A stretch of DNA of 51,370 bases from Armatimonadota bacterium (GTDB lineage Bacteria > Armatimonadota > UBA5829), in the NCBI GenBank assembly GCA_012522555.1, contig JAAYKG010000101.1, positions 1 through 51,370 on the forward strand. Direction: 5' to 3'. Positions within the stretch are counted from its first letter, which is position 1, and each line of letters opens with the position of its first letter. This document shows positions 20,105 through 29,535 of the stretch, piece after piece. The notes under the pieces were generated by a model. That model was given only the letters and a program-made list of their open reading frames with translations, did not search any database and had not been told where the DNA came from. A program made the position numbers and the translations under genes.

Positions 20105-21202
20105 GTGCAGTACAGAGATTTCGGGAAAACTGGTGTCAAGATTTCGGCTTTGGGTTTCGGGGCGATGAGGCTTCCGCAATCCGAAGAAGAAGCCGTGCGC
20201 GTGATAAGGCGCGCGTTTGAGCTGGGTGTGAACTATCTTGATACCGCCCGAATATACCCCGACAGCGAAGTCAAGTGCGGCAAAGCGCTCAAGGGTTGGC
20301 GGGACAAAATCTACCTTTCGACCAAAAACAACCTCGAGGATAATACGGTTGAGGGTTGGTGGAGCCGCCTGAATACCTCCCTGGAACTCCTTGATACCGA
20401 CTACATCGACTTCTATCAAATCGTCCACGATATGAAATTCCAGCACTACGACGAATTTTTATGTAAAGGCGGGATGGATGCCGCCAGGAAAGCCCGCGAA
20501 CAAGGGCTGATCAAATACTGCTGCATCAGCACCCACGAAACACCGGAGAATATGATCAAACTGCTGGATACGGGCGAATTTGACGGGATGACGGTTCAGT
20601 ATAATCTGCTCGATCGAGTCAACACAGAGGTCATCGCACATGCCCATGAATTGGGCCTTGGGATCGTTGTGATGGGGCCGGTAGGCGGCGGAAGATTGGG
20701 TGCGCCATCGGACAAGATCAAGGAATTGATAAGCGCCCCCGTCGCCAGTTCCGCCGAAGTCGCTTTGCGGTTTGTGCTGGCAAACCCAGGAGTGACTTGC
20801 GCTATATCAGGGATGAGCACCATAGAGATGGTCGAGGAAAACTGCGCCACCGCGAGTCGAGAGGACCCGCTTTCGGATGAGGAAAGACTGGCGATTGAGG
20901 CTTCACTGGATGAAAATAAACGCCTGGCCGAGCTTTATTGCACGGGCTGCGAATATTGCATGCCCTGCCCCCACGAAGTCAATATAGCCGCCAACTTCAG
21001 CATTATGAACGCCCACCGAATATACGGGCTGACAGACCACGCGCAGCGGCGATACAATCGACTCAGCGATCCTGAACATCCGGCGCGAGGAAAGAAAGCC
21101 CAGGATTGTTTGGAATGCGGACAATGCGAGCCGAAATGTCCGCAGAAGATTCCAATTATCGCTCAACTCAGAGAAGTCGCCGAAACGTTCAAAAAGAAAT
21201 GA
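20105..21202 (+). CDS. Aldo/keto reductase with two C-terminal [4Fe-4S] motifs
   Basis: 365-aa protein. Residues 1-270 form an aldo/keto reductase barrel with the tetrad in view: DTARIYPDSE (Asp and Tyr), LSTKNN (Lys) and YQIVHDM (His). The C-terminal ~90 residues hold ferredoxin-like cysteine sets, CTGCEYCMPCPHEVNI and CLECGQCEPKCPQKIP. Such fused reductases are common in anaerobes and probably draw electrons from ferredoxin, but the substrate is unknown. The GTG start at 20105 has GAGGAG upstream. It is convergent with the hydrogenase operon across 25 bp. Confidence 0.9.
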   Translation: MQYRDFGKTGVKISALGFGAMRLPQSEEEAVRVIRRAFELGVNYLDTARIYPDSEVKCGKALKGWRDKIYLSTKNNLEDNTVEGWWSRLNTSLELLDTDYIDFYQIVHDMKFQHYDEFLCKGGMDAARKAREQGLIKYCCISTHETPENMIKLLDTGEFDGMTVQYNLLDRVNTEVIAHAHELGLGIVVMGPVGGGRLGAPSDKIKELISAPVASSAEVALRFVLANPGVTCAISGMSTIEMVEENCATASREDPLSDEERLAIEASLDENKRLAELYCTGCEYCMPCPHEVNIAANFSIMNAHRIYGLTDHAQRRYNRLSDPEHPARGKKAQDCLECGQCEPKCPQKIPIIAQLREVAETFKKK

Positions 21203-21227: not shown

Positions 21228-22373
21228 CTAATAGTATCGCAGCTCAGTCTCTTTGCCGAGGAGTTCGAATCGCTTGGCCAGCTTCTCCACCACCGTTCGC
21301 CGCAGGAATATCGAATCCGGCAGCCCGGTGTTTTGATGCGCGGGGTTTCGCGCCGTGCCGACCATAAAAGTTATGCCGTCCACCGATTCGAGATTGTCCA
21401 GCAGCGTGGTGGCTGCGTCAATCCTGTCCTTCGGTCGCCCCTTAGCTAGGTATTCGGATGCTCGGCTGAGAGTGAGTATGCCCTCCGTAACCAGATCCAC
21501 CCCATCCATTCGCGCAATCGGCGGCAGGTCGGTGTCTATGTATCGCTCATCAGGAACCAGCTTCGCGTCCAGATGGTCGGCAAGCAAATGGGAAGTCGTG
21601 CCGCCACAGACGATTTTTTTACCTTTAGTGGCCATGAAATCTTTGAGCATTTTACCCACTAATTCGCGGTTATGTGGAGGCCCGGTCAGGAGGGTGGCAT
21701 TCACGGCTTTGCGATATCGGGCACACAGCACTGTGCCATCATCGCCGGGGCGTTCGTGCCAGAACCCCAGAGCGGTCTCGGCGACGTTGTCAGCGATCTC
21801 GGTGCATTCGGACAATTCCGGCGCGGTCTGGGACACATATTCCAGTATCCCGTCCTCCTGCCATCCCATCGGCAGCCCTTCCCCGACCCCGGCATAGACA
21901 ATTCCATCCGAAAAAAGCAGAACAGCGTCGTTTGGACTGAGCCGGAAGTGCGATTCCCGGATAGTGCGCTCCATGATTGTTCGTTTTGTGCTCTTTATGG
22001 TCGACGGTCGATTGCCACTGCGAAGATGCAGCAGAATGGGAGAATCATACTGAGCGACGGTGACATGGCCGGTATCATAGATGCGCACAATGGAAAACGT
22101 GGAGTACGCGATGTTTCGCCATTTGCACACGGGCAGAGTGGCAATCAAGGTCTCGACGATCTCTTGAAGCGACAACTCCCCCGTAAACAGCCCGGTGGCC
22201 AGTTCCACCGTCATCGTGGCGAGCACGTTCGCTTTGACCCCGCTGCCCAACCCGTCGGACATTACTATGATCGTCGAATCAGGCGTGCGGGAGATCTTGA
22301 TCGCATCCCCGCATATATCCTCACCATTTTTCGAAAACTGGCGAGAGGTTACATCCACGGCGAATCTTTTCAT
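21228..22373 (-). CDS. SpoIIE/PP2C-type serine phosphatase of the hydrogenase operon
   Basis: 381-aa protein with an N-terminal PP2C-like (SpoIIE) phosphatase of about 210 residues. Metal-binding aspartates are in IVMSDGLGSGVKA, LLFSDGIVYAG and RPGDDGTVL. The last ~160 residues are a separate domain without a fold I recognise; it contains a VCGGTTSHLLADHL segment and a predicted helix bundle. The ATG overlaps the stop of hydS (ATGA), so the two are made together. PP2C genes beside sensory [FeFe] hydrogenases are known in Clostridia-type anaerobes. The likely role is output of the hydrogen sensor by dephosphorylating a partner protein not encoded in this window. Confidence 0.87.
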   Translation of the reverse strand: MKRFAVDVTSRQFSKNGEDICGDAIKISRTPDSTIIVMSDGLGSGVKANVLATMTVELATGLFTGELSLQEIVETLIATLPVCKWRNIAYSTFSIVRIYDTGHVTVAQYDSPILLHLRSGNRPSTIKSTKRTIMERTIRESHFRLSPNDAVLLFSDGIVYAGVGEGLPMGWQEDGILEYVSQTAPELSECTEIADNVAETALGFWHERPGDDGTVLCARYRKAVNATLLTGPPHNRELVGKMLKDFMATKGKKIVCGGTTSHLLADHLDAKLVPDERYIDTDLPPIARMDGVDLVTEGILTLSRASEYLAKGRPKDRIDAATTLLDNLESVDGITFMVGTARNPAHQNTGLPDSIFLRRTVVEKLAKRFELLGKETELRYY

Positions 22374-24115
22374 TCGGAGACCTTCTCGCCTCCATTTCCA
22401 TTGCCGTCGGACTCCTTCATCAGTTCCGTCAACTTACGCAGTAAAACCCGGGTCTCGCTGGTGGTTTCTCCAAGGATACCTGCGATTTCCTGGGCCATCA
22501 ACATCTGCTTTTGGATGACTTCCTCGGCGTGAGACAGCGTCTCTTCACGAATATGTTCCAGTCGGCTAAGCCCTTCGGTGCCTTTATTCACGTTCGCCAG
22601 AATCCCCACAACCAACTCTTCATGTTCGATTCTGTAGACGTTCATATTCGCGCTGATGTGATAGGCCGGGAAAGACACATCTTTGTTGACAATTCGATCC
22701 ACAGCCCCTGTCATAACTCTTTCAAAATCCCCGGTATCCATCAACGTTGACAGCGGTTTACCCACGATTCCGCGGCTGCATGAGAACAATTCAGCAAACG
22801 CCGCGTTGAAATCCACCACACGCAGCGTGGAATCGACGATCACGATCCCGTTGGGGCTATTGTCTATAATCTGGTCCGCTTTTCGCTCGGCCACTTTTCG
22901 CATCCAGGGAATACACATATTGTGCTCGGCCATCCCCGTCAAAACCGCGATAGCGTTCGCCCTGCAGCTCGGGTAGCCGCACGCGCCGCAGTTAAGCTCA
23001 TCGTCAGGCGTGAGCTTACCCGTCCGCGCCAGGACGCTCTTTATTTTGTCCTCGGTGATCTCTTTATGGTCGATGACATTCTCGCTGTAAGAGCACCGCA
23101 TTTCGATGTTTTCCATAATGGCGTTGAAATCCGCCGTGTCAGCGCCGTGGGCTGAGCGTTTCTGGTGCTGCAGAATCTGATTGCGTCTGCGAAAGATGTC
23201 TTTTCCATCGCCGAAACACGCGCCATTTATGCAGCCGCCCGAACAATACAACCCCTCAAAGAGCTTAACAGTGCTGCCGTTCTTGAGGTTTTCGAGCATC
23301 TCTTCGACTTGCTCACTGCCGGATAGCGCGACGAAATCCTGTTTGAGCAGGTCCGGCGCCATAGACGCCGCCTCCGCCAGCCCGCCTTCCAGAGGGAAAA
23401 GTCGAGCCAACGATGCCGGAATATCGTCCATATCGGCGGATCGGAGTTGATCTTTTCGAATATTTGCGGAATCGATCCACGCCCGCAGTTCCTCGAATGT
23501 CAGCACCGCATCAACATCTCCGGCCAATTCCGGCTGTTCGGCCTCCGCTTTTTTTGCCGAACACGGACCTATAAACACGATCTTGGCCTCATCGCCATAC
23601 TGTTTTCTAAGATGCCGGGCGTGTGCGATCATCGGCGACACGACCGGAGCGATGTTGCCGATCAAATCCGGATGATATTTGACGATCAAATCGACCAGCA
23701 CCGGGCAGGCCGACGCGATGTGGGATTGGGGCTCTTCAGCAACCACTTTTGCAGTCTCTCGAGCCACCATCTCCGCCCCAACCGCAGTCTCCGTCACAAA
23801 ATCGAACCCCAACTGTTTCAAAACAGCCGGAAAAAGCCCTCCGCCATAGTCCGGAAACGCAGCCACATAGGATGGGGCCACCGAAGCCAATACGCAGCCT
23901 GCGCCTATTAATACTTGAACCCGAAGAAGTTCGTTTCGTACCTGCTTGGCCTTTGGCGGGCATCCGCGAACGCACGTCCCGCAGGCCAGGCAGCGGGCGG
24001 GGTCGACCTGCGCCTGGCCTTCGGATATTCGGATCGCCTTAACGGGGCAGATCCTTACGCAGCGATAGCAATCTCTGCATCGCGCTTTGTTAGTGGATAT
24101 AATCCCTGTGTTCAA
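22370..24115 (-). CDS. hydS: PAS-containing sensory [FeFe] hydrogenase (HydS, group C-like)
   Basis: 581 aa. Two [4Fe-4S] motifs (Cys 13-52) are followed by an H-cluster domain (about 70-310). The L1 motif, TSCCP in catalytic enzymes, reads SACP (135-138): the cluster-binding cysteine stays and the proton-transfer cysteine is alanine. L2 keeps GPCSAKKAE (Cys185) and L3 keeps CSGGCINGAC (Cys291, Cys295). A [4Fe-4S] motif CGACGYPSC...C (376-401) and a PAS domain (about 413-515) follow, then a helical tail. This layout fits sensory rather than catalytic hydrogenases. Start TTG at 24113-24115 with GGCGGA upstream; it overlaps the preceding ferredoxin gene by 4 bp. Confidence 0.88.
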   Translation of the reverse strand: MNTGIISTNKARCRDCYRCVRICPVKAIRISEGQAQVDPARCLACGTCVRGCPPKAKQVRNELLRVQVLIGAGCVLASVAPSYVAAFPDYGGGLFPAVLKQLGFDFVTETAVGAEMVARETAKVVAEEPQSHIASACPVLVDLIVKYHPDLIGNIAPVVSPMIAHARHLRKQYGDEAKIVFIGPCSAKKAEAEQPELAGDVDAVLTFEELRAWIDSANIRKDQLRSADMDDIPASLARLFPLEGGLAEAASMAPDLLKQDFVALSGSEQVEEMLENLKNGSTVKLFEGLYCSGGCINGACFGDGKDIFRRRNQILQHQKRSAHGADTADFNAIMENIEMRCSYSENVIDHKEITEDKIKSVLARTGKLTPDDELNCGACGYPSCRANAIAVLTGMAEHNMCIPWMRKVAERKADQIIDNSPNGIVIVDSTLRVVDFNAAFAELFSCSRGIVGKPLSTLMDTGDFERVMTGAVDRIVNKDVSFPAYHISANMNVYRIEHEELVVGILANVNKGTEGLSRLEHIREETLSHAEEVIQKQMLMAQEIAGILGETTSETRVLLRKLTELMKESDGNGNGGEKVSE

Positions 24116-24360
24116 ATTTTCCGCCTAAGAATATGTTCGAAGAAGAACGATTCGGCTTTATCAGGGGTGATGCCGCCATATGTCACGCCATCAACCACCA
24201 CGTTCGGCGCCTGGATACAATTATCCAGGCACAGATCCGCAGCCAAATCGACCTCATCGGCCAACTTATGCTCATCAATGAGCGTCTTAAAGACCTTGAG
24301 AGTCTTTGCGCCACCTCTGATATGACACGAACTACCAACGCAGCATTTTACGCTTACCAC
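24112..24360 (-). CDS. Small thioredoxin-fold [2Fe-2S] ferredoxin
   Basis: 82-aa single-domain [2Fe-2S] protein. Cysteines are in CVGSSCHIRG and CLDNC, and the tail APNVVVDGVTYGGITPDK matches the C-terminal domain of HydA just upstream (APNVQVGETIYGGITPDK has SPNV in HydA), pointing to a common origin. The start is GTG at 24358-24360 with GGAGG upstream. Lying between hydA and hydS and overlapping hydS by 4 bp, it could carry electrons between the catalytic and sensory enzymes; that is inference. Confidence 0.88.
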   Translation of the reverse strand: MVSVKCCVGSSCHIRGGAKTLKVFKTLIDEHKLADEVDLAADLCLDNCIQAPNVVVDGVTYGGITPDKAESFFFEHILRRKI

Positions 24361-24363
24361 CGG

Positions 24364-26406
24364 CTAGACCTCCAGCGTTTCCGCTTTAACAGCGCCCTGT
24401 GCGGCAGGCTTGATCGTGTTTTCAAAGAACTCGTCGATCTTATCGGGGGTGATGCCGCCGTAGATTGTCTCTCCGACCTGCACGTTGGGGCTGGCCTTGC
24501 ATTTCTCAAAACAGAATGTCGCCCTGAAGTCGATCTTGCCGGCCAGACCTGATTCTCGAGCTTTGTCGATCAACCTGCGCAGGGTGTCATACGACCCGCG
24601 AAGATAACAGTTAGTGCCTATACACACCGAAACCGGAGTCTTAGGCCCTGTTTGTTCCTCGGTCAGTTCCAGATCTTCGCCTTGAATGCGCCTTCTGGAC
24701 CTGTAGCCGGTGTGCAGCAGCTTATGCGCGATAGCGCTGTTGGGTTTTTGCAGCAGTTTCTCATAACACTCCTTGATATAAGGATTGTCAGCCGCATTGT
24801 GCAAAGGCAGGATTGCATCGCAGTCATACAATGTGCGCTTGCGCTCTTCTCGGGCCTGCATGTCGTTGGGCAACGGCTGGCCGCCTCCGCCGATACACCC
24901 GCCTCGGCACGCCATCACTTCAACAATGTCATACTCGGCCTCGCCAGACTGTATTCGCTCAAGCACCTCTCTGGCATTAGCCAAGCCGCTTAGAACCGCC
25001 AGGCGGATAGTCTTGTCGCCGAGAGTTACTGAGGCTTCCTTCAACCCTTCAAGGCCGCGCACCTCGCGAAATTCTATGGGAGCGGTCTTTGAAGTTGGTT
25101 TCTCAGCAGCAGCAGCCAGCCTCAATACCGCCTCAGCGACACCGCCGCTGGTCCCAAATATGATACCCGCGCCAGTCTTGAAACCGAACGGAAGATCCAT
25201 CGATTCCGGCGGCAGGTCCGCTACCCGAATCCCAGCCTCGTCGATCATACTAATCAGCTCTTGGGTGGAGATTACCGCATTTACGTCCGGATCGCCCTCG
25301 ACGGCAAACTCCGGTCGGTCGGCCTCGAATTTTTTGGCTGTGCACGGCATCACCGAGACCACATACAGGCTCTCGCGTTCAACAGATTCGTTGTCGGCAA
25401 AATACTGTTTCGCCAGCGAGCCGAACATCTGCTGGGGGCTTTTGCACGATGACAGGTTGGACAGATAGCCAGGATAGAACTGCTCAACGAACTTCACCCA
25501 CGCCGGGCAGCAGCTTGTGAACTGCGGCAGCTTCTCACCTTTGGCCACTCGGCCCAGAAACTCAGTGGCTTCCTCAACGGTCGTCAGATCAGCCGTGAAC
25601 GACGTATCATATACCTTCTCGAAGCCGATTCGCCGCAGAGCGGTTACGGTTTTGCCCATCGCGTGCTCCCCGCCTGTGATCCCATACGCCTGAGCAATGG
25701 CAGCCCGGACCGCAGGTGCAACCTGCACGATGACCGTTTTGGTCGGGTCGTTGATGGCTTTCCAGACTTGATCGGTCTGGCTCTTGATGGTAAGCGCGCC
25801 GGTCGGGCACACAGAGGCGCACTGACCACAGTAGACGCACTCGACATCTTTCAGGTTCTTGCCGAACGCCGGACTGACGCGAACGTCGCTTCCTCGGCCG
25901 ACAAAGTCCAGCACGCCGATCCCCTGCACTTCTTTACACATTCTCACACAGTCACCGCACAGGATGCACTTATTCGGGTCGCGCATCAGGGACTGGTTTG
26001 TGTCGTCGATCGGCAAAACGTCATTAAGCTCATCAAATCGCACGTTTTTGACGCCGAGCTTCTGCGCGAGATCCTGCAGCTTACAGCGAGTGTTTTTACC
26101 GCAGGTCTGGCAGTTGCCGTGGTGATTAGCCAGCAGCAGCTCGAGCGCCATCCTGCGGATTCGCATCACTTGCTCCGTGTGCGTGCGGACTACCATACCA
26201 TCTTCGGGAGGGGTCGAGCACGAAGCCTGGATCCCTCGCCCGTCTATATCCACTATGCACATCCGACAAGCGCCATATACGGACAACTCGGAGTGGTAGC
26301 AAAAAGTCGGTAGTTCTATGCCCGAAGCTCGAATCACCTCGAGCAGGTTTTTACATCCGTTAATCGGGGTCTGAACCCCATCAATAGTTATATAGCCTTC
26401 CATCAT
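24364..26406 (-). CDS. hydA: [FeFe] hydrogenase catalytic subunit, NADH-dependent group A
   Basis: 680 aa, the hydrogen-producing or -consuming subunit of a HydABC complex. In order: [2Fe-2S] ferredoxin domain (Cys36, 47, 50, 63); a His-Cys3 [4Fe-4S] motif in HHGNCQTCGKNTRC (95-108); two [4Fe-4S] motifs (147-200); the H-cluster domain with L1 TSCCPAW (298-303), L2 MPCTAKKFE (Cys355) and L3 EVMACRGGCIGGGGQ (Cys500, Cys504); then a C-terminal thioredoxin-like [2Fe-2S] domain (about 590-665, Cys595, 600, 632, 636). All catalytic residues are present. Two adjacent ATG codons (26406, 26403) follow AAGGAG. This architecture is typical of electron-bifurcating enzymes that use NADH and ferredoxin together. 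Confidence 0.95.
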   Translation of the reverse strand: MMEGYITIDGVQTPINGCKNLLEVIRASGIELPTFCYHSELSVYGACRMCIVDIDGRGIQASCSTPPEDGMVVRTHTEQVMRIRRMALELLLANHHGNCQTCGKNTRCKLQDLAQKLGVKNVRFDELNDVLPIDDTNQSLMRDPNKCILCGDCVRMCKEVQGIGVLDFVGRGSDVRVSPAFGKNLKDVECVYCGQCASVCPTGALTIKSQTDQVWKAINDPTKTVIVQVAPAVRAAIAQAYGITGGEHAMGKTVTALRRIGFEKVYDTSFTADLTTVEEATEFLGRVAKGEKLPQFTSCCPAWVKFVEQFYPGYLSNLSSCKSPQQMFGSLAKQYFADNESVERESLYVVSVMPCTAKKFEADRPEFAVEGDPDVNAVISTQELISMIDEAGIRVADLPPESMDLPFGFKTGAGIIFGTSGGVAEAVLRLAAAAEKPTSKTAPIEFREVRGLEGLKEASVTLGDKTIRLAVLSGLANAREVLERIQSGEAEYDIVEVMACRGGCIGGGGQPLPNDMQAREERKRTLYDCDAILPLHNAADNPYIKECYEKLLQKPNSAIAHKLLHTGYRSRRRIQGEDLELTEEQTGPKTPVSVCIGTNCYLRGSYDTLRRLIDKARESGLAGKIDFRATFCFEKCKASPNVQVGETIYGGITPDKIDEFFENTIKPAAQGAVKAETLEV

Positions 26407-26413
26407 ATACTCC

Positions 26414-28303
26414 TTAACTCAGCACCACTGCATCGAACTTGCACACTTCAGCGCACACGCCGCATCTGGTGCAAAGAGTCGCATCGATGACGTAAGGGCT
26501 TTTCAACTCGCCGGAGATCGCATTCACCGGGCACTTTTTAGCGCATAGACCACAGCCCTTGCACTTCTCTGAGACAATCGAATAGGCCTTGAACGATTCG
26601 CACTCGCCAGCCGGACAAACCCCGTCCACTATATGAGCGAGATACTCATCTCTAAAGTGCTTCAGGGTGGAGATGACCGGGTTGGGAGCGGATTTGCCCA
26701 GCCCGCACAACGAGCCGTCGCGCACCGTCAGCGCCAATTCCTCCAGTAGGCTGATGTCCTCCACCTTGCCTTTTCCAGAGACGATCCTGGTCAAAATATC
26801 GAGCATGCGCTTGGTTCCCTCGCGACACAAAACACATTTGCCGCAAGATTCCTTTTGGGTGAAGCTCATAAAGAATCTGGCGATCTCGACCATACAAGTC
26901 GAGTCATCCATAACCACCAGCCCGCCACTGCCCACCATCGCGCCGACGGATTTCAGCGAGTCATAGTCCAGCGGAAGATCAAGGTGCTCCTCGGTGAGGC
27001 ATGCGCCGGAGGGGCCGCCTATTTGAACAGCCTTAAACGGTCTGCCTGTGCGGATGCCGCCGCCGATCTTGAACACGACATCTCCCAGAGTTGTCCCCAT
27101 CGGGACCTCGATCAAACCGGTGTTCACGACATCGCCGGTAAGAGCGAAGACTTTGGTGCCGGGGGAGCGTTCGATCCCGAAACTGCGGAACCATTCCGCC
27201 CCGTTCAGAATGATTTTAGATACGTTGGCGAAGGTCTCGACGTTATTGACTACAGTCGGTTTGCCCCACAAACCCGAGTTAGCCGGAAACGGCGGCTTGG
27301 GCCTCGGCATACCTCTCTGACCTTCTATCGAACTGATTAGCGCCGTCTCCTCGCCACACACAAATGCCCCGGCGCCTTCTTTGATGTGGATATGAAACGA
27401 GAAAGGCCCGCCCAGGATTCGATCGCCGAGCAACCCAGCCTGTTCGGCTTGAGATATTGCAGTGCGCAAACGACTGATTGCGAGTGGATATTCTGCGCGC
27501 ACATATATATAACCCTCGTCAGCGCCGATCGCGTAGCCCGCTATCGCCATCCCTTCGAGCAGCGCGTGCGGGTTGCCTTCCATAATACTTTCGTCCATAA
27601 ACGCGCCAGGATCACCTTCGTCGGCGTTGCAGACCACATATTTTTTCGCGCTCTGCACAACCTGGGTGAATCCCCATTTGCGGCCTGTCGAGAACCCCGC
27701 TCCTCCGCGGCCGCGCAGCCCGGACTCAGTCACTTCGGCGACCACAGCTTCCGGAGTCAATCCGAACAAAGCCTCAGCCAAAGCTCGGTAGCCATCGCGG
27801 GCGATATAATCGCGAATATCTCCAGGCTCGATAACCCCGCAATCCGCCAGAACCACATTGACTTGATCCTTATAAAACGGCAAGTCGTCGCGCTTGGCGT
27901 AGCTGTTGTTTTCATCTTTGAACAAAAGCCTGTCAACCGGCTTGCCGTTCATAACGGTCTGTGTGACGATATCATCTGCATCTTCGGGCTTAACCTGCAC
28001 ATAGAAATAATCCGCGGGCAGAATCCTCACGATCGGGCCAACCTGACAGTAACCCGGGCAGCCGCTGTAGCCGATGGTGATGGCATCTTCATCTTCTTCG
28101 CGCATAATATCAGCGCGCACCGGCACTTCGTGCTTTTCGAGCGCTTTTTGGAGAGCATCGAGCACCGCCGGGCCACCGTTAGCCATGCATCCTGTGCCGC
28201 CGCACACCAACACTCGTGTGGCGCATCCTTGAATTGCAGAGATCGCCTTGCGCTTGAGCGCGTCTAATTCCGTTGGTGAATTGAGTTTGGCAAATGGTGT
28301 CAT
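26414..28303 (-). CDS. hydB: HydB: NuoF-like NADH/FMN subunit of the hydrogenase
   Basis: 629 aa. An N-terminal thioredoxin-like [2Fe-2S] domain (Cys34, 39, 82, 86) is followed by the NuoF core with the NADH/FMN loop GLRGRGGAGFSTGRKW (195-210), a [4Fe-4S] site CGKCVLCREGT, and two ferredoxin motifs at the end (CKGCGLCAKKC and CTRCGVCAEVC). This is the flavin subunit that connects NAD to HydA and, in bifurcating enzymes, to ferredoxin. The ATG at 28301-28303 overlaps the stop of hydC (ATGA) and has GGAGG 7 bases upstream. Confidence 0.94.
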   Translation of the reverse strand: MTPFAKLNSPTELDALKRKAISAIQGCATRVLVCGGTGCMANGGPAVLDALQKALEKHEVPVRADIMREEDEDAITIGYSGCPGYCQVGPIVRILPADYFYVQVKPEDADDIVTQTVMNGKPVDRLLFKDENNSYAKRDDLPFYKDQVNVVLADCGVIEPGDIRDYIARDGYRALAEALFGLTPEAVVAEVTESGLRGRGGAGFSTGRKWGFTQVVQSAKKYVVCNADEGDPGAFMDESIMEGNPHALLEGMAIAGYAIGADEGYIYVRAEYPLAISRLRTAISQAEQAGLLGDRILGGPFSFHIHIKEGAGAFVCGEETALISSIEGQRGMPRPKPPFPANSGLWGKPTVVNNVETFANVSKIILNGAEWFRSFGIERSPGTKVFALTGDVVNTGLIEVPMGTTLGDVVFKIGGGIRTGRPFKAVQIGGPSGACLTEEHLDLPLDYDSLKSVGAMVGSGGLVVMDDSTCMVEIARFFMSFTQKESCGKCVLCREGTKRMLDILTRIVSGKGKVEDISLLEELALTVRDGSLCGLGKSAPNPVISTLKHFRDEYLAHIVDGVCPAGECESFKAYSIVSEKCKGCGLCAKKCPVNAISGELKSPYVIDATLCTRCGVCAEVCKFDAVVLS

Positions 28304-28827
28304 TGCGCGTCCTCCGCCTTATCCGCTTCTTCGATTTTATCAATAGCCTCGACCATAGCTTGGGCAGTCGTCTGTCCGTAGACGTGTCCATCGATGACGA
28401 CAGCGGGAGCCAGCGCACATGCCCCGATGCAGCTTACTATCTCGAATGTAAAGCGGTGGTCGTCGGTGGTTTTCTTGTCGGGCGCCAATCCTAGCCGCTG
28501 ATTGATTGCGTTGATTATCGTCTGGTTCTTGCGCACATGACAGGCTGTGCCGTCACAGCACTTTATAATATGCTTGCCCTTTGGCTCCAGCGAAAACTGA
28601 GCATAAAACGTCGCCACTCCATAGACGGTGGCCGGCGGAAGGTCGAGCGCTGTTGCTACAAACGTGAGAATTTCCTCCGGCAGATATCGATATTCATCCT
28701 GGACTTTCTGCAGAATCGGGATCAGAGCGCTCTCGGTCGCCCCATACTCCTCGATGATCTGCTGAATCCGACTGAAATGACGCCTGGCCTTGGAGCCTTT
28801 TTCGGGCAATACGGCAGACTGAGCCAA
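28300..28827 (-). CDS. hydC: HydC: NuoE-like [2Fe-2S] subunit of the hydrogenase
   Basis: About 175 aa, thioredoxin-fold [2Fe-2S] subunit homologous to NuoE. The helical N-terminal part ends in VYGVATFYAQF, and cluster cysteines are in CDGTACHV and CIGACALAP. The start is taken as TTG at 28825-28827, 8 bases after GGAGG; the reading frame extends five codons further to another TTG at 28842, but that lies upstream of the Shine-Dalgarno. It is followed by hydB with a 4-bp overlap and preceded by rex 16 bp away. Confidence 0.92.
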   Translation of the reverse strand: MAQSAVLPEKGSKARRHFSRIQQIIEEYGATESALIPILQKVQDEYRYLPEEILTFVATALDLPPATVYGVATFYAQFSLEPKGKHIIKCCDGTACHVRKNQTIINAINQRLGLAPDKKTTDDHRFTFEIVSCIGACALAPAVVIDGHVYGQTTAQAMVEAIDKIEEADKAEDAQ

Positions 28828-28843
28828 TTGAACTACCTCCAAA

Positions 28844-29503
28844 TCACTTAGCCCTCTCGGGGGCTTGGTCTTTGATATTGTTTTTCATTTCGTATGAAAG
28901 GGTGATGAGTCCCCAGGCCAGAGACTGGCTCTCGACGACCACATCTTCGGGCACATGCAGTTTCACCGGCGCGAAGTTCCATATAGCGCGGATACCCGCT
29001 CCGACCATCAGATCAGCCGTATCCTGCGCCGCCGATGCCGGCACCGCAGCCACCCCTGCAATAATGTTTTCGGCCTTAACCACCCCGTATATCTCGGTTA
29101 CATTGCGCACTCTTATCCCTGCGGTCGTTGTCCCGATCAAACTGGGGTCTGTGTCGAATATGGCGGCCAGTTCAAATCCCGCTCTGGACCAGATATTGCT
29201 GGCTGTGAGCGCTCTGCCGAGGTTTCCCAAACCCACAAGACAGGTTTTTTTTGCGGTTTTGAGGTCCAGCACCGATCGAATTAGTTCTGCGAGTTGGGCT
29301 ACTTCGTATCCGACCTTCGGTTTGCCCTCTGATCCCAGGTGGAAGAAATCCTGTCGCACTTTGTCGGCGGAGACGCCGGTCGCTTCGCCGATCTGCCTGC
29401 TGGTCACGTATACCGAACCATCTGCTTCGAGTTGTTCGAGCAGTTCGAGGCAGAGTTCCATTCTCAGAACGGACGCTCTCGGCATTTTTTTGTGCTCACC
29501 CAT
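28844..29503 (-). CDS. rex: Redox-sensing transcriptional repressor Rex
   Basis: 219-aa Rex. The N-terminal winged helix (about 8-80) contains VTSRQIGEATGVSADKVRQD. The NAD(H)-binding Rossmann loop GLGNLGRAL is at 91-99. A C-terminal helix swaps between subunits in the family. Rex binds DNA when NAD+ is high and lets go when NADH builds up. It is the first gene of the hydrogenase operon, with a matching operator at 29518-29535 placed over the transcription start, so it most likely regulates itself and hydCBA-hydS. The recognition region reads VRQDFFHLGSEGKPKVGYEV, slightly different from the common RKDL form. Confidence 0.95.
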   Translation of the reverse strand: MGEHKKMPRASVLRMELCLELLEQLEADGSVYVTSRQIGEATGVSADKVRQDFFHLGSEGKPKVGYEVAQLAELIRSVLDLKTAKKTCLVGLGNLGRALTASNIWSRAGFELAAIFDTDPSLIGTTTAGIRVRNVTEIYGVVKAENIIAGVAAVPASAAQDTADLMVGAGIRAIWNFAPVKLHVPEDVVVESQSLAWGLITLSYEMKNNIKDQAPERAK

Positions 29504-29517
29504 AGTATCCCCGGCAT

Positions 29518-29535
29518 TCGTTAAACAATTAACAA
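29518..29535. promoter_or_regulatory. Rex operator
   Basis: TCGTTAAACAATTAACAA. Compared with the Rex consensus TTGTTAA-N4-TTAACAA, the right half-site is perfect and the left differs at one base. It begins four bases downstream of the -10 box and ends 14 bases before the rex ATG, so bound Rex would cover the transcription start. Confidence 0.85.

Follow-up and report, generated by a model that had tools for sequence, protein, structure and literature searches.

A HydS hydrogenase paired with a SpoIIE-type phosphatase in an Armatimonadota bacterium: a conserved tail as candidate relay of a predicted hydrogen signal

How might a phosphatase that carries no N-terminal sensor be informed of the presence of hydrogen (H2)? 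The question is raised by three overlapping genes in a stretch of 51,370 nucleotides from an Armatimonadota bacterium (GenBank assembly GCA_012522555.1, contig JAAYKG010000101.1, positions 1 to 51,370), hereafter the window. All three lie on the minus strand and encode a thioredoxin-like [2Fe-2S] protein (82 residues, GTG start, 24112..24360; PF01257 E 6.9e-8), a sensory [FeFe] hydrogenase, HydS (581 residues, TTG start, 22370..24115; assigned from Pfam matches and alignment), and a SpoIIE/PP2C phosphatase (381 residues, ATG start, 21228..22373). The stop of the [2Fe-2S] gene and the start of hydS share TTGA, and the stop of hydS and the start of the phosphatase gene share ATGA, which confirmed both the positions and the overlaps given in an earlier note made from the sequence alone. 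We lean, with modest confidence, towards viewing HydS and the phosphatase as a split counterpart of RsbP, in which the H2 state of HydS would pass through its PAS domain and C-terminal tail, in trans, to the phosphatase.

Relatives of the phosphatase were sought in 84,980 species genomes, which gave at least 575 encoding stretches, and the best 80 were used for comparison. A PAS-containing HydS was encoded directly upstream of the phosphatase in 79 of these, and in the remaining relative the phosphatase stretch begins 169 bases from the contig end; because the arrangement recurs in 79 of 80 relatives and the last is cut by its contig, the pairing is not due to chance. A few relatives seemed to lack HydS, but tblastn showed this to be an artefact caused by longer antisense frames. 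The start/stop overlap of the pair was present in 50 of the 66 relatives in which it was measurable, an upper estimate since the first possible start codon was taken. The neighbours of the pair differed among relatives (monomeric hydrogenases, HydB, or adhE with a small APH-like kinase), and HydB was detected inside the locus, taken as up to 8 kilobases on each side, in 23 of 80; the HydS-phosphatase pairing is therefore firmer than any single hydrogenase context. A second, divergent pair (~42% and 33% identical) was seen in three genomes of the same class beside another Rex-HydABC operon (L057, L058, L059, L060), and one of these genomes has a third pair (L060), next to another hydrogenase-like gene.

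Judged by architecture and gene context, the window module belongs to the published phosphatase-linked type of [FeFe] group C3 (PMC5037454), in keeping with the hydrogen-sensing module of HydS and PP2C first suggested for this locus. It has the H-cluster cysteines, a C-terminal [4Fe-4S] domain followed by PAS, and an adjacent Ser/Thr phosphatase gene. HydDB describes group C3 as a phosphatase-linked sensory hydrogenase, its role listed as undetermined (PMC5037454), and the same PAS sensory hydrogenase and Ser/Thr phosphatase are found there, with no essential difference from the window pair. New here are the 79/80 pairing, a signature in the HydS tail, the co-occurrence of this tail with the phosphatase C-terminal domain, and that domain itself, which lacks a known family; no description of the tail signature or of the C-terminal domain was met in the literature compared here.

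HydS is composed, in order, of two [4Fe-4S] ferredoxin motifs (residues 6-57, 23945..24100; Fer4 matches, cysteines invariant), an H-cluster domain (residues 75-299, 23219..23893; PF02906 E 6e-50), an iron-sulfur (FeS) [4Fe-4S] domain (residues 374-403, 22907..22996; PF04060 E 1e-10), a PAS domain (residues 414-505, 22601..22876; PF13188 E 1e-7, PF00989; C-terminal limit fixed by inspection) and a helical tail, all on the minus strand. The earlier note had recognised the PAS domain and the tail but overlooked the FeS domain between the H-cluster and PAS. In a 13-sequence alignment the four H-cluster cysteines of motifs L1-L3 (C137, C185, C291 and C295), whose retention had already been claimed, were all invariant, as were C376, C379, C384 and C401 of the FeS domain. 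Compared with HydA of the same operon, HydS has Ala136 at the proton-transfer position, where HydA carries the first Cys of its SCCP motif, and Gly183 where HydA has Met before the L2 cysteine, and with Ala and Gly in place of Cys and Met it falls outside the catalytic group A. Leu289, two residues ahead of the L3 cysteine, is assigned by that spacing to the position of the second Met. The Ala had been reported before and is indeed present, but it is not diagnostic: across 72 HydS sequences (71 relatives and the window), the set used for all residue tallies and conservation values, the proton-transfer position holds Cys in 46, Ala in 13, Ser in 6 and others in 7. As far as sequence comparison goes, Gly183 and not Ala136 is the mark of the family, because this glycine is retained in 71 of 72 sequences and the cysteine is still found in 46. 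The HydS of Thermotoga maritima, which is slow but active, shares the Ala at the proton-transfer site, the Gly for Met before the L2 cysteine and the PAS domain, whereas its third second-sphere residue is Ser267 instead of Leu289, and it was studied by itself, without a phosphatase (PMC10055695).

The phosphatase begins with a SpoIIE/PP2C catalytic domain without N-terminal extension (residues 1-222, 21708..22373; PF07228 over residues 31-220, 60 bits against a cut-off of 25 bits), in which the metal-binding aspartates D23, D40, D156, D211 and D212 are invariant. In a structure model of the phosphatase (mean predicted local distance difference test score, pLDDT, 91.7), this domain was nearest to PP2C structures such as 3pu9 and SpoIIE, and also to RsbX and RsbU. 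The first strand starts at residue 4, and the N-terminal sensor and helical linker are absent from the chain; the protein thus has the SpoIIE domain and aspartates of the SpoIIE/RsbU family and lacks the same-chain sensor with linker. Five other SpoIIE paralogues measured in the genome have sequence before the PP2C domain, which ends the protein. No RsbP-like fusion of PAS, coiled coil and PP2C in one protein was found among 73 phosphatase frames measured in relatives.

Behind the catalytic domain, the model shows an alpha/beta domain of ~160 residues (residues 223-381, 21231..21707) that folds with a mean pLDDT of 91 and has the conserved loops GPP, GGTT, GIDLVTEG and NPAHQ. A Pfam search of this domain returned no family and no fold was matched with confidence, which agrees with its first description as an extra domain without a recognisable fold. 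Phosphoheptose isomerase was unconvincing (best E 0.05 in a profile search of the PDB), methylglyoxal synthase 1vmd, the best Foldseek match (E 9e-3, template modelling score 0.41), amounted to a weak Rossmann-like resemblance, and a DRTGG identity was rejected at a profile comparison probability of 0.9%. Across 28 same-class genomes, strong matches to the domain (E below 1e-37) were this family's phosphatases or contig-end pieces. The suggestion that hydrogen state is read in this domain found no support: a cysteine motif or cofactor signature is absent from it, and the sensing centre lies in HydS.

The tail of HydS is the better candidate for signal relay than the phosphatase C-terminal domain, because no other part of HydS is as well conserved. 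Its signature, QMxxAQEIAxxLGETTxETxxxLxKL (residues 536-562, 22430..22510, minus strand), falls within QMLMAQEIAGILGETTSETRVLLRKLT and was defined by conservation across the 72 sequences, where the tail reaches 3.73 bits per residue, compared to 3.15 for the FeS domain, 2.78 for the N-terminal ferredoxin, 2.31 for the H-cluster domain and 1.96 for PAS. A profile of the tail matched 46 times across 44 genomes, almost always inside an open frame as long as HydS, and the few shorter frames were cut by contigs; no match was found in the PDB. When tail and phosphatase C-terminal domain were counted in 13 genomes of the same class, the two numbers agreed in 12 (1/1, 2/2, 3/3 or 0/0), and the sole disagreement was in a genome (G023) where the phosphatase is at a contig end. 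Since it is conserved beyond the catalytic parts and tied to the phosphatase, the tail is best read as a likely contact surface with the phosphatase.

In the mechanism that we propose, HydS would be catalytically weak and would sense H2 through its H-cluster, and binding of H2 or reduction would cause a conformational change transmitted through the FeS domain and PAS to the helical tail. The tail would serve in trans as the helical linker that phosphatases of the RsbP/RsbU type have within one chain, a role proposed because the RsbP order of PAS, helix and PP2C is here divided between two overlapping genes. Its docking site on PP2C may lie close to the regulatory helices (alpha-1/alpha-2 and, after them, the LPVCxxR segment particular to this family), and docking there would set phosphatase activity. 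Electron exchange with HydS is the probable role of the thioredoxin-like [2Fe-2S] protein, the phosphatase would dephosphorylate a Ser/Thr protein that tunes hydrogenase and fermentation genes, and its C-terminal domain probably recognises the target or a metabolite. The linkage, the tail conservation, the agreement between tail and C-terminal-domain counts, the phosphatase without linker and the invariant aspartates are the points that we count for this model, along with the published work on related systems. A more elaborate version, in which the tail is a trans-activating linker of PP2C, the C-terminal domain a second input for a ligand or target, and the phosphatase an integrator of H2 with a metabolite or partner signal, is possible but rather doubtful.

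Known systems supply both the analogy and the sign. RsbP of Bacillus subtilis has PAS, helical linker (a coiled coil) and PP2C (PPM) domain in the same order, in one chain instead of two overlapping genes, and detects energy stress via RsbQ, without a hydrogenase; in RsbU and RsbP, the PP2C domain is controlled by helical linkers from the sensor (PMC3183031, PMC12143880). The hfsB-hfsC genes of Thermoanaerobacterium likewise encode a PAS-[FeFe] hydrogenase and, after it, a serine phosphatase, with the ferredoxin hydrogenase hfsD as partner where the window operon has Rex-HydC-HydB-HydA, and adhE expression and fermentation are altered in hfsB/hfsC mutants (PMC5707799, PMC11837493): deletion of hfsB raised the adhE transcript and hydrogenase activity, and deletion of hfsC left a wild-type ethanol yield (PMC5707799). 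In the cluster of Ruminococcus albus 7 (pRUMAL01), a Rex gene stands at the head and the [2Fe-2S] protein, HydS and phosphatase with C-terminal domain are ordered alike, whereas HydABC is missing and adhE, a small kinase, a second [2Fe-2S] protein and a monomeric hydrogenase are added; HydS and the phosphatase have been connected there with the H2 response, and in co-culture, a condition of low H2, the cluster was down 111-fold (PMC6776011). We propose that without H2 HydS restrains the phosphatase and that H2, or loss of HydS, lifts the restraint, because the fall in R. albus co-culture and the hfsB/hfsC mutants both fit.

The pair stands at the end of a longer gene series, of which only the last three genes had been considered previously and Rex-HydC-HydB-HydA upstream had been left out. 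The minus-strand order is rex (28844..29503), encoding an NADH (reduced nicotinamide adenine dinucleotide)-responsive repressor of 219 residues (NCBIfam Rex models E 4e-57, over the NF003995 cut-off), hydC (28300..28842; NuoE-like subunit, PF01257 E 3e-50), hydB (26414..28303; NuoF-like flavin subunit, PF01512 E 1e-49), hydA (24364..26406; group A catalytic [FeFe]-hydrogenase subunit, PF02906 E 1e-93, TIGR02512 over cut-off), and then the [2Fe-2S], hydS and phosphatase genes. HydABC here represents a bifurcating-type hydrogenase operon with the three-gene sensing unit at its end. The C-terminus of HydA is itself a thioredoxin-like [2Fe-2S] domain, to which the 82-residue protein is 41% identical over 74 residues (BLASTP E 4e-18). 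Rex operators follow the consensus TTGTTAANNNNTTAACAA. At the operon head, some 15 bases before rex begins, lies a probable Rex operator, TCGTTAAACAATTAACAA (29518..29535, no strand assigned), an 18-base palindrome with one mismatch to this consensus; a match with at most one mismatch occurred in 0 of 100 shuffles of the window. Given this palindrome, the stretch from Rex to the phosphatase is probably a single Rex-controlled operon. An aldo/keto reductase with a C-terminal ferredoxin-like domain (20105-21202) is convergent with the phosphatase gene, and a homologue was inside the locus in 2 of 80 relatives.

What the phosphatase acts on is where other readings compete. The earlier note was correct that the window holds no kinase or anti-sigma gene, in that none was found among the eight proteins scanned from Rex through the aldo/keto reductase, but a kinase is encoded in 5 of 80 loci, and the search of the genome that it had suggested did find STAS, RsbW-like and SpoIIE proteins, all unlinked to the pair (seven STAS matches, including two in STAS+HATPase fusions, and eight HATPase_c_2 and eight SpoIIE matches over cut-off). 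Together with the structural likeness of the catalytic domain to SpoIIE, RsbX and RsbU, these proteins would suit a classical partner switch, in which an unlinked STAS anti-anti-sigma protein is the substrate, an RsbW-like kinase opposes the phosphatase and H2 controls a sigma factor. We consider this fairly unlikely, as the scanned genes beside the window pair include no STAS, RsbW-like kinase or sigma gene; STAS was also found in all 50 relatives' genomes scored for it, and because of this its presence cannot discriminate. A dedicated small kinase opposing the phosphatase, like the APH/RIO-like phosphotransferase between the adhE and [2Fe-2S] genes of R. albus (APH E 9e-14, RIO1 E 6e-9), is a less probable alternative. 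It shares the operon in R. albus 7 and in the 5 loci, and Zheng et al., as cited in PMC5707799, proposed signalling to an adjacent Ser/Thr kinase, but it was not found in the other 75 loci, and a search of this genome up to E 1, made without a positive control, turned up no R. albus-type kinase. Members of this family, as possible opposing kinases, are at L099:5205-5954, L114, L128, L134, L141 and L194:4380-5129 (R. albus and relatives).

It is improbable that the phosphatase opposes the RsbW-like kinase of a group D hydrogenase cluster, so that two H2 sensors would direct the opposing enzymes towards a common target. This genome does have a cluster of that kind (L163:2162-4408, contig C250 of G000; DRTGG, RsbW-like kinase, group D HydS without PAS, DRTGG, PHP and HATPase), in 3 of 80 relatives it borders the HydS-phosphatase genes, and the kinase was present in 30 of the 50 genomes scored; however, it was missing in the other 20, several of them of 4-7 megabases, and therefore cannot be a general partner, so that an obligate role was rejected. 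The group D HydS frame in this genome is, moreover, interrupted by an in-frame TAG, with an intact copy in G004 of the same genus, indicating a pseudogene or an assembly error. In three related genomes (L124, L130, L137), HydS-phosphatase and RsbW-DRTGG-HydABC clusters are neighbours. Least probable, in our view, is that HydS is mainly a slow hydrogenase or an electron valve for HydABC via the [2Fe-2S] protein, its link to the phosphatase being incidental. HydS does keep all H-cluster ligands, the activity of the T. maritima protein is measurable (PMC10055695) and the [2Fe-2S] protein resembles the HydA C-terminal domain, but a valve would leave the near-universal phosphatase pairing and the extreme conservation of the tail unexplained, and HydB is within the locus in only 23 of 80 relatives.

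Several points weigh against relay from HydS to the phosphatase through the tail. The 80 relatives are the top matches to a phosphatase query, a sample biased to the HydS-linked type. The proton-transfer Cys is kept in 46 of the 72 HydS sequences, and impaired catalysis is therefore not uniform across the family. The LPVCxxR segment near the suggested docking site is lost in the divergent second pairs. The C-terminal cluster of a group D relative is not reduced by H2 (PMC13104023). Physical contact between HydS and the phosphatase, like the H2 response of the window HydS, is what we infer from the genes and their conservation, and the proposed sign draws on other organisms and single mutants.

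Group C sensory hydrogenases are thought to report the H2 level to fermenting and syntrophic bacteria, and H2 sensing matters for ethanol yield, methane from the rumen and gas in the gut. For the phosphatase-linked type, residues 536-562 of HydS provide a small candidate contact that is accompanied by an undescribed phosphatase domain, and the proposed sign, by which H2 would release the phosphatase from HydS, is consistent with the published data from R. albus and Thermoanaerobacterium.

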